Part shown: piece after piece, positions 19,154 to 22,329 of the stretch
Numbering within the stretch: position 1 is the first letter of the stretch
Layout of the letters: each line of letters starts with the position of its first letter
Assembly (NCBI RefSeq): GCF_039543225.1
Contig: NZ_BAABJI010000002.1
Coordinates: forward strand, 744,001-808,000
From: Mucilaginibacter defluvii
GTDB lineage: Bacteria > Bacteroidota > Bacteroidia > Sphingobacteriales > Sphingobacteriaceae
Length of the DNA stretch: 64,000 bases
Direction of reading: 5' to 3'
Notes under the pieces: generated by a model
What the model was told of the DNA's origin: nothing
The model's input: only the letters and a program-made list of their open reading frames with translations
Database searches by the model: none
Made by a program: the position numbers and the translations under genes

Positions 19154-20416
19154 ATGGAGGATATAACAACTTACAATTTTTATTTTGATAACGCTGTCGC
19201 GGCAAGCCGTAAAATGGCCGGCTTATCCGCAGACGTTATAAATAAAGTACTCCATGAGGTGGCTGCCGCTGCCGTTGATCATACGGAGTTTATTATCGGC
19301 GAAAACAAAAAAGATCTCGCCCTGATGCCCGCCGATGATCCGAAGTATGACAGGCTGAAAATGACCGCCGAGCGCATTCAAAGTATCGCGAATGATATTG
19401 TTGCAGTGAGTAAGCTACAATCGCCGTTAGGAAAAGTATTGGAAGAACGTGTTCTTGAAAACGGACTACAGTTAAAAAAACTTTCGGTACCGCTTGGCGT
19501 AATCGGCGTTATTTATGAGGCGCGGCCTAATGTTACTTTCGATGTATTCGCGCTTTGTTTTAAAACCGGCAATGTAGCCGTTTTAAAGGGGGGTAGTGAT
19601 GCCGATCATTCCAACAGGTGCATTGCGGGAATTATCCGGCAGGTATTGGAGAAAAACAATCTCGACAAAAATATCCTCACCCTGCTCCCCGCCCAACGCG
19701 AGGCTACCCATGCCCTGCTAAACGCTACAGGTAAGGTTGATGTGCTTATTCCACGCGGAAGTCAGGGCTTGATTGATTATGTACGTGATAACAGCAAAGT
19801 ACCTGTTATTGAAACCGGTGCCGGTATTGTACACACCTATATCGCGCCTTCAGCCGAAGTTGTAAAATCACAGGATATAGTGCTTAACGCCAAAACACGA
19901 CGTGTAAGTGTTTGTAACGCTTTAGATTGTTTACTTGTGCACTCATCGCAATTGACAAATCTCGCGGCTATTGTTGCCCCACTTGCCGAAAAGAACGTAA
20001 TTATTTATGCGGATAATCCTGCTTATCATCAACTAAAAAACCATTACCTGCATAGTTTACTACAACATGCTGAGGATAAACATTTTGGTATAGAATTTCT
20101 AGATTATAAACTGGCGATAAAAACTGTTGACAGTATGGATAGCGCGCTAAACCATATCGCCATACATAGCTCAAAACACAGCGAGGCCATATTAACAGAA
20201 AACGAGGATGAAGCCAACCGCTTTAGCGCAGAAGTTGATGCCGCAGCCGTTTATGTTAATGCCTCTACCGCGTTTACTGATGGCGCCCAGTTTGGTTTAG
20301 GGGCCGAGATAGGCATCAGTACACAAAAGCTACATGCCCGTGGCCCGATGGCGCTCAACGAATTAACAAGTTACAAATGGGTAATTAGGGGAACAGGGCA
20401 AATCAGGACAACCTGA
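19154..20416 (+). CDS. proA: Gamma-glutamyl phosphate reductase ProA
   Basis: Second step of proline synthesis, NADPH-dependent reduction to glutamate semialdehyde. 420 residues. Catalytic Cys254 sits in [20 protein letters not shown] and [12 protein letters not shown] are ALDH-family ProA signatures. It forms the proBA operon. A minus-strand terminator downstream belongs to the small peptide gene; no plus-strand T-run is visible after proA. Confidence 0.97.
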
Positions 20417-20433
20417 TTTAACATACGCGTAAA

Positions 20434-20468
20434 CAAAAAGCGGGACCCTTACATGCCAGGGTCCCGCT
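20434..20468 (-). terminator. Terminator of the 31-residue peptide gene
   Basis: Perfect 11-bp stem AGCGGGACCCT (20439-20449) with 20458-20468, 8-nt loop, T5 then GTTT on the minus strand. There is no T-tail on the plus strand, so it serves the small gene at 20490-20585. Confidence 0.8.
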
Positions 20469-20489
20469 GAAAAATCATGCCGGGGGTAA

Positions 20490-20585
20490 TCAGAAAAAAT
20501 AATAATTCACCGCCACTGCTAAGCCCACAACTGCAAGTATCACGCCTTGCAGCTTTTGCTCGAAAGTTAAGTTAACAGCATTCAT
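20490..20585 (-). CDS. 31-residue single-span membrane peptide
   Basis: A short frame on the minus strand starting ATG at 20583-20585 and ending TGA at 20490-20492. The N terminus is MNAVNLTFEQKLQG, followed by one hydrophobic segment VILAVVGLAVAVNYYFF, so a small inner-membrane peptide with a cytoplasmic or periplasmic amphipathic head is predicted. Support for a real gene is the exact promoter TAGATTTG (20608-20615) with TTG 19 nt upstream (20635-20637), a 22-nt leader, and a matched strong terminator 22 nt after the stop. No function is recognisable; small membrane peptides often modulate membrane complexes. Confidence 0.65.
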   Translation of the reverse strand: MNAVNLTFEQKLQGVILAVVGLAVAVNYYFF

Positions 20586-20607
20586 ATCTTTATAAATTAG
20601 GGTATTA

Positions 20608-20637
20608 CAAATCTATAAGGTGTTATCATTTTTGCAA
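20608..20637 (-). promoter_or_regulatory. Promoter of the 31-residue peptide gene
   Basis: Minus strand: TTG (20635-20637), 19-nt spacer, TAGATTTG (20608-20615), exact TAnnTTTG. Confidence 0.7.
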
Positions 20638-21224
20638 TAGCGACTATCACTTTTGTTATTTTTTTAACAAAATGGCAATTACGATTTTATCATGTTTAAA
20701 CACAAGTCACTTTTGTATGAAATATTTCAAAAAAGTGCTCGTATGATATTAAAACATCGATTGCTATAGTATGCTTAACCCGGAATTTACAGCAGCATAA
20801 TTTAAAAAAAACATTGAGAATGGACAATCCTACCGCAACTCGTTAAAAAACGGTGGCATATTCTAATGGTCTCTTCATGTATTTTTCAAAAGTGAGCGCG
20901 GCATACTCTGCATAAAGGCGAACAAGCAGGTTTAAAATCAAATTAGCCGACGTTTGTCGGCTAAATGCCAAAATCCGGCAGAAATAACGATGTTTAGTAT
21001 ACAATAACTTCACTTATTAAACCATCGGCTATTGGCGAATAAAGAAATCCAGTTATTAGGTTTATGCAAGTAACGCGCTCAAATAATTGAAACACAAAGC
21101 ACATTAACTCAAAAGCAACTACATGCTGAAAGCCTTTACAGATGTTTTCTGTATGATTTTTGATAAATGTTATCACTAAATCGTCAAAATAAACCACGCA
21201 TATAAGTGTCTGTAAAACATTGCT

Positions 21225-21240: not shown

Positions 21241-22329
21241 ATGAGCAAGCACGGTAGAATATTGGTGGCCATGAGTGGTGGTGTAGATAGTTCGGTAGCG
21301 GCAGTAATGCTGCACGAGCAAGGTTACGAGGTTATTGGCCTCACCATGAAAACCTGGGATTACGCGTCATCCGGCGGCAGCTCTAAAGAAACCGGCTGCT
21401 GTAGCCTGGATAGTATTAACGATGCGCGCGCGTTGGCAGTGAGTTACGGCTTTCCGCATTATATACTTGATATTCGTAACGAATTTGGCGACTTTGTTAT
21501 AGACAACTTTGTTGATGAATACCTTGCGGGCCGTACCCCTAACCCATGTGTACTATGCAATACCCATATTAAATGGGAAGCCTTACTGAAACGTGCCGAT
21601 AAGCTGGATTGTGAGTTTATAGCTACCGGGCATTATGCTAATATAAGGGTACATGATAATGGTCGCTACGTAATTTCAAAAGGTAAGGATGTAAACAAAG
21701 ACCAATCTTACGTACTGTGGGGCGTATCGCAAAAAAACCTGGCACGTACTAAATTTCCTTTAGGAAGCTTTTCAAAGCCGGAGATCAGGCAGATGGCGCT
21801 GGATATGGGCCAGATGGAGCTTGCAGGCAAGAGCGAGAGTTACGAGATATGCTTCGTGCCGGATAATGATTACCGATCGTTTCTGCGCCATAAGGTTGAA
21901 GATTTAGATGAACGGGTTGGTAAAGGCAATTATGTACTTACTGACGGAACCGTTGTAGGGCAGCATGAGGGGTATCCCTTTTACACCGTAGGCCAGCGCA
22001 AGGGCTTGGGAATAGCTTTAGGTAAGCCTATGTTTGTTACTGCTATACAGCCCGATACAAATACTGTAGTATTGGGCACAGCCGAAGAATTGGAACGTAA
22101 AGAAGCCTGGGTAAAAAATTTAAACCTGATAAAATACGAAACGATTACTGAGCCTATTGAAGCAGTTACAAAGATCCGATACAAAGACGCAGGCACGTTA
22201 AGCAACATTGTACAAATGGGCGAACACATGAAAGTTGATTTCCACCATGCGGTTTCCGGCATAGCCCCTGGTCAATCTGCCGTGTTTTACGAAGGCAATG
22301 ATCTTCTTGGCGGAGGTTTTCTGATCTAA
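21241..22329 (+). CDS. mnmA: tRNA 2-thiouridylase MnmA
   Basis: ATP-dependent transfer of sulfur to U34 of tRNA Lys, Glu and Gln. 362 residues from ATG 21241; an upstream in-frame start lies in the promoter. The PP-loop is MSGGVDSSVAA (11-21). Catalytic Cys106 is in NPCVLCNTHI and the persulfide-carrying Cys204 in SYEICFVPDND. Start assignment agrees with the near-leaderless promoter at 21225. A hairpin (22361-22400) follows, with no clear T-run. Confidence 0.97.
   Translation: MSKHGRILVAMSGGVDSSVAAVMLHEQGYEVIGLTMKTWDYASSGGSSKETGCCSLDSINDARALAVSYGFPHYILDIRNEFGDFVIDNFVDEYLAGRTPNPCVLCNTHIKWEALLKRADKLDCEFIATGHYANIRVHDNGRYVISKGKDVNKDQSYVLWGVSQKNLARTKFPLGSFSKPEIRQMALDMGQMELAGKSESYEICFVPDNDYRSFLRHKVEDLDERVGKGNYVLTDGTVVGQHEGYPFYTVGQRKGLGIALGKPMFVTAIQPDTNTVVLGTAEELERKEAWVKNLNLIKYETITEPIEAVTKIRYKDAGTLSNIVQMGEHMKVDFHHAVSGIAPGQSAVFYEGNDLLGGGFLI

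Follow-up and report, generated by a model that had tools for sequence, protein, structure and literature searches.

Does the gap downstream of proA in Mucilaginibacter defluvii hold a gene for an overlooked small membrane protein, as a preliminary description made from the sequence alone had proposed, or a small RNA? Within the 64,000-nucleotide stretch analyzed here (the window), a minus-strand frame at 20585-20490 runs for 31 codons from ATG to TGA and encodes MNAVNLTFEQKLQGVILAVVGLAVAVNYYFF. It is convergent with proA (19154-20416, plus strand), so that its placement downstream of that gene is correct, and its divergent upstream neighbor is mnmA (21241-22329, plus strand, start inferred at the ATG at 21241). 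Both flanking signals that had been described were recovered: a TTG at 20637-20635 separated by a 19-nt spacer from the box TAGATTTG at 20615-20608, and a strong intrinsic terminator (20434-20468, minus strand) in which a hairpin at 20468-20439 with an 11-pair stem (8 G-C) and an 8-nt loop is followed by the T-rich tail TTTTTGTTT. Consensus matches of this kind are near chance at a single locus: terminator-like sites in the window number 3 versus 2.6 expected. One locus alone is therefore unconvincing, and it is the comparison with relatives that decides. The 0.6-kb gap between the promoter of the small gene and mnmA also contains a perfect 9-bp hairpin, TTAGCCGACAAACGTCGGCTAA (20943-20964), which is terminator-like on the minus strand and has no obvious gene ending there.

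When 100 related genomes were first searched with the peptide, it was detected in more than half of those of the same genus, with a best E-value outside its own genome of 5.6e-10. Using profiles built from 24 and later 43 peptides, exactly one intact homologue, free of internal stops, was found in 78 of 150 Mucilaginibacter genomes, the E-value in each genome being about 1e-11 to 1e-17; the peptide of M. roseus (L121) is identical to MNAVNLTFEQKLQGVILAVVGLAVAVNYYFF. The same profiles gave no significant match in the rest of the family (400 genomes, Mucilaginibacter included) or elsewhere in the order (300 genomes) or phylum (392 genomes) sampled, and the best family-level matches outside the genus (G334 and G429) proved to be unrelated frames lacking both the promoter and the LTxEQKLQ head of the peptide. 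Scanning a degenerate codon pattern across the whole sequence collection added two vaguely named MAG contigs (Lichen Sphingobacteriaceae MAG and Bacteroidetes MAG) that carry true family members, the remaining non-Mucilaginibacter matches lying inside larger ORFs or in unrelated frames. Thus, the conservation expected among Sphingobacteriaceae holds at the level of the genus but not of the family. On a proA tree the presence of the gene is clustered, requiring 5 changes for 63 rows versus 20.8 in shuffled labels, which marks it as an old gene of the genus subject to clade-wise gain or loss; inheritance has been mostly vertical. Because it is absent from about half of the genus, the small gene is not essential. 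No match was found in plasmids or phages, and an origin from either was rejected on that ground.

The reading frame is conserved at these loci. In an alignment of 25 codons from 58 non-redundant loci, the entropies at codon positions 1, 2 and 3 are 0.77, 0.34 and 1.38 bits. For the 600 pairs in which dS is usable the median dN/dS is about 0.14; many of the others are saturated. These values indicate that the protein is what is selected. The frame is open in every significant homologue, substitutions are overwhelmingly synonymous, and the promoter, leader, ORF and terminator occur together and are conserved as one unit. A non-coding small RNA with an accidental open frame would account for a short transcript bounded by a matching promoter and terminator, and for a promoter that resembles those of stable RNAs, but it is strongly contradicted by the intact frame, the dominance of third-position variation and the low dN/dS, and its probability is close to negligible. 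Loss of the frame with retention of the promoter-terminator pair had been named in advance as the mark of such an RNA; the opposite was found, as 28 genomes of the genus without the ORF have neither a homologous frame nor a matching promoter adjoining proA in the 1.5 kb downstream of that gene.

The transcript could still have a second role, in which the peptide is made and the RNA of about 170 nt also acts as a base-pairing sRNA. The tight promoter-terminator unit would suit such a molecule, and the transcript folds better than shuffled sequences (z -3.3), the terminator supplying much of that difference. A hairpin with a T-run is present in 53 of the 58 homologous loci, but the sequences of the 3' UTR and terminator vary freely among relatives and conservation is concentrated in the codons and the promoter, so a dual function seems quite improbable.

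Gene order at the homologous loci is variable: in the flanks examined, proA is convergent in most, the upstream neighbor is either mnmA or an aldehyde-dehydrogenase-like gene, and some clades have other downstream genes. The small gene is thus an autonomous unit outside any operon, neither an operon member nor a leader peptide. A role as leader peptide or attenuator is further ruled out by the terminator, which directly follows the ORF, and by the convergent orientation of the next gene, proA, which leaves no co-directional target. The locus is best explained as an independent, monocistronic gene for a small protein, restricted to Mucilaginibacter.

Short hydrophobic peptides from intergenic transcripts are also characteristic of type I toxin-antitoxin pairs (toxins of the TisB and Hok kind), in which a hydrophobic toxin is silenced by an antisense RNA. 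The size and hydrophobicity of the peptide fit this description, and for Bacteroides thetaiotaomicron some sORFs have been put forward as parts of candidate type I pairs (PMC7366714). However, a consensus opposite-strand promoter lies near the gene in only 1 of 58 loci, consensus promoters alone having been scored, and none is conserved. Unlike such toxin genes, the small gene is always single copy, vertically inherited and strongly conserved; it is absent from plasmids, phages and PADLOC models, and its strong, constitutive-looking promoter has no visible control. We consider a toxin very unlikely.

The promoter itself carries further information. Aligned on the final G of TAnnTTTG, the homologous promoters have their information concentrated in four elements: TTG, TA..TTTG, AAAARTG at -46 to -40 and TTAAAWWW at -59 to -51, the two tracts being about 11 bp apart. 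Among non-redundant homologues, the -7 box (20608-20615, minus strand) is nearly invariant as TA..TTTG, and the spacer to the -33 element TTG (20635-20637, minus strand) is conserved: of the 52 promoters that could be scored, 45 keep it at exactly 19 nt. Farther upstream on the same strand lie a proximal UP-element-like box, AAAAGTG (20648-20654), whose AAAA is 94-100% conserved with up to 2.0 bits of information, and a distal conserved A-tract, TTAAAAAAAT (20658-20667), about 11 bp or one helical turn beyond it. The composite pattern with the proximal box, AAAARTG-N8-14-TTG-N18-20-TAnnTTTG, occurs 3 times in the genome of the window versus once for the reversed control. According to the flavobacterial rule the box spans -12 to -5 (PMC9723704), which would place the transcription start at about 20603. 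The 22 nt earlier given as the leader are therefore the distance from box to ATG, whereas the leader itself is probably about 18 nt (20586-20603, minus strand). This predicted leader is AT-rich with a conserved CCCTAATT and has no Shine-Dalgarno sequence, which is usual for this phylum (PMC6847099).

A sequence-only model of the promoter region (R1) was run on 22 genomes. In most of the carriers searched, its best match was the promoter of the small gene itself; the exceptions include G111, G034 and one clade whose promoter is displaced. Nine of 33 inspected high-ranking sites other than the gene's own were directly upstream of tRNAs on the same strand: the tRNA-Gly(GCC)-Leu(UAA) operon in 7 genomes, one tRNA-Pro and one tRNA-His. 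Since 7 of the 9 represent one orthologous operon the independent count is small; we estimate chance closeness to a tRNA at well below 1% per site. In the genome of the window, the two next-best inspected matches were not tRNA promoters. No second protein-coding gene with the whole signature stood out in this regulon search, which returned tRNA operons instead. Because the next-best relatives of the promoter are often tRNA promoters, the comparison suggests a strong promoter of the stable-RNA type and, with it, strong expression.

Several loci add observations of their own. In Mucilaginibacter tRNA-Gly(GCC)-Leu(UAA) operons (L183, L193, L195, L189, L191, L213 and L217), phased A-tracts lie upstream of TTGCAGAATATTC...TATATTTG, a shape common to the small gene, and a systematic survey of UP-element-like activation in Bacteroidota may be worthwhile. 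In one clade (L028, L074 and L126) the peptide is conserved but the promoter is not the usual one: it lies about 45 nt ahead of the ATG and lacks the A-tracts, a natural promoter replacement. Elsewhere in the window, a Bacteroidales-type small SRP RNA (RF04183, 32926-33033) has a TATATTTG box closely upstream, and a minus-strand tRNA gene (Rfam RF00005, 1044-1114) follows a longer frame at a short distance and seems to lack its own promoter.

The 43 distinct peptides of the family range from 28 to 33 residues and share the pattern xxLTxEQKLQGVILxIICxVAxxNYxI, in which L6, E9, Q10, K11 and Q13 are invariant and T7, I16 and Y28 are conserved at 90% or more. AlphaFold2 predicts a single helix over residues 8-30 (mean pLDDT 94), alignment columns 14-26 are hydrophobic throughout, and the hydrophobic stretch is short, at about 17 residues. 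T7 followed by x-E-Q resembles an N-cap, small residues prevail at positions 14 (G), 21 (C/G/S) and 24 (A) to give a heptad-like stripe, and the conserved N27-Y28 pair lies at the far end of the helix. K11 and the frequently basic N-termini suggest an N-inside orientation by the positive-inside rule. A short conserved ORF under purifying selection and one hydrophobic helix are two hallmarks of bacterial small membrane proteins (at most 50 residues, one span), and the proposal of an overlooked protein of this class is supported, its translation and membrane location being predicted. No match above threshold was found in Pfam, NCBIfam, PHROGs, PADLOC or PDB sequences, and a search of the literature on Mucilaginibacter small proteins found nothing relevant. 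The family thus appears to be new and genus-restricted, though of a known kind.

The function most consistent with these features, to which we assign a probability of roughly 55%, is that of a highly expressed, genus-specific, single-span inner-membrane accessory protein acting with a partner membrane protein or complex. Transcription by the housekeeping sigma factor, with upstream A-tracts like those of stable-RNA promoters, would yield an abundant mRNA whose AT-rich leader would be translated without a Shine-Dalgarno sequence. The product would insert into the inner membrane as one helix, N-capped at T7 and reaching to about residue 30, with the invariant LTxEQKLQ end most likely cytoplasmic. 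The stripe at positions 14, 21 and 24, which we read from the alignment as a packing surface, would pack together with N27-Y28 at the far interface against the partner, and the small protein would stabilize or tune that partner as AcrZ does AcrB. AcrZ, a small transmembrane helper of the E. coli AcrB efflux pump, offers a precedent for this mode of action (PMC7267776), being likewise a separately encoded, single-helix inner-membrane protein that packs on a larger membrane protein, as proposed here. The two have no detectable sequence relation in Pfam, NCBIfam or PDB.

Cytochrome bd and the Kdp ATPase are known complexes with single-span subunits of about 30 residues, CydX and KdpF, and CydA and KdpA are each present in 136 of 150 genomes of the genus; a dedicated subunit of either complex was therefore considered. 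However, the 99% complete genome G037 (matching Mucilaginibacter hurinus) has the small gene and neither CydA nor KdpA, so the gene is not an obligate CydX or KdpF analogue. CydX occurs only with CydA and usually in its operon, whereas the small gene occurs without CydA in G037 and has proA, mnmA, an aldehyde-dehydrogenase-like gene and others as neighbors across its loci; KdpF occurs with KdpA in kdpFABC, whereas G409, like G037, has the small gene and no KdpA match. Of the species that have these complexes, about half are without the small gene, and no cyd or kdp neighbor was recognized in the flanks examined. Either complex is thus largely refuted as an obligate partner, a dedicated role in one of them is highly improbable, and the partner of the proposed accessory protein would not obligately be cytochrome bd or Kdp. 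As a separate observation, CydA proteins of Mucilaginibacter (G000, G001, G034, G060 and others) fall into two score classes, about 525-548 bits (model positions 1-418) and about 454-494 bits, which suggests that the genus has two subtypes of cytochrome bd. Most genomes with the high-scoring class also have the small gene, although common descent alone may explain this.

The main rival to a partner-bound accessory protein is a peptide that acts on the lipid bilayer itself, affecting membrane potential, fluidity or stress survival rather than one partner. The 27-residue E. coli YohP, of similar length and likewise a single hydrophobic helix, changes the composition and potential of the membrane and has no enzyme known as its partner (PMC12719787). 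However, the LTxEQKLQ head, where four of the five invariant residues are polar, and the conserved N-Y pair represent more specificity than a bilayer-active helix needs. YohP is linked to starvation and stress (PMC12719787), whereas the strong, housekeeping-type and tRNA-like promoter of the small gene suggests constitutive rather than stress expression, and no sequence relation between the two was found. Direct action on the bilayer is therefore unlikely.

Beyond the accessory role favored here, the gene may, more speculatively, encode a genus-specific, abundant and possibly growth-rate-coupled small membrane protein under a stable-RNA-type promoter, invented within the lineage as a regulator or subunit for a core inner-membrane complex in which no such component had been known; this we put forward only tentatively. 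For the study of small proteins, the locus shows cleanly how a protein family can fall below the size that standard gene finders handle: it is intact in 78 species-level genomes, is under strong purifying selection and has no match in the family libraries searched. Soil Bacteroidota have few characterized small membrane proteins, and the family could be a ready test case for small-protein discovery in these bacteria. Promoter work in the phylum has so far centered on the -7 and -33 boxes, and the two helically phased A-tracts common to this gene and tRNA promoters point to UP-element-like activation.
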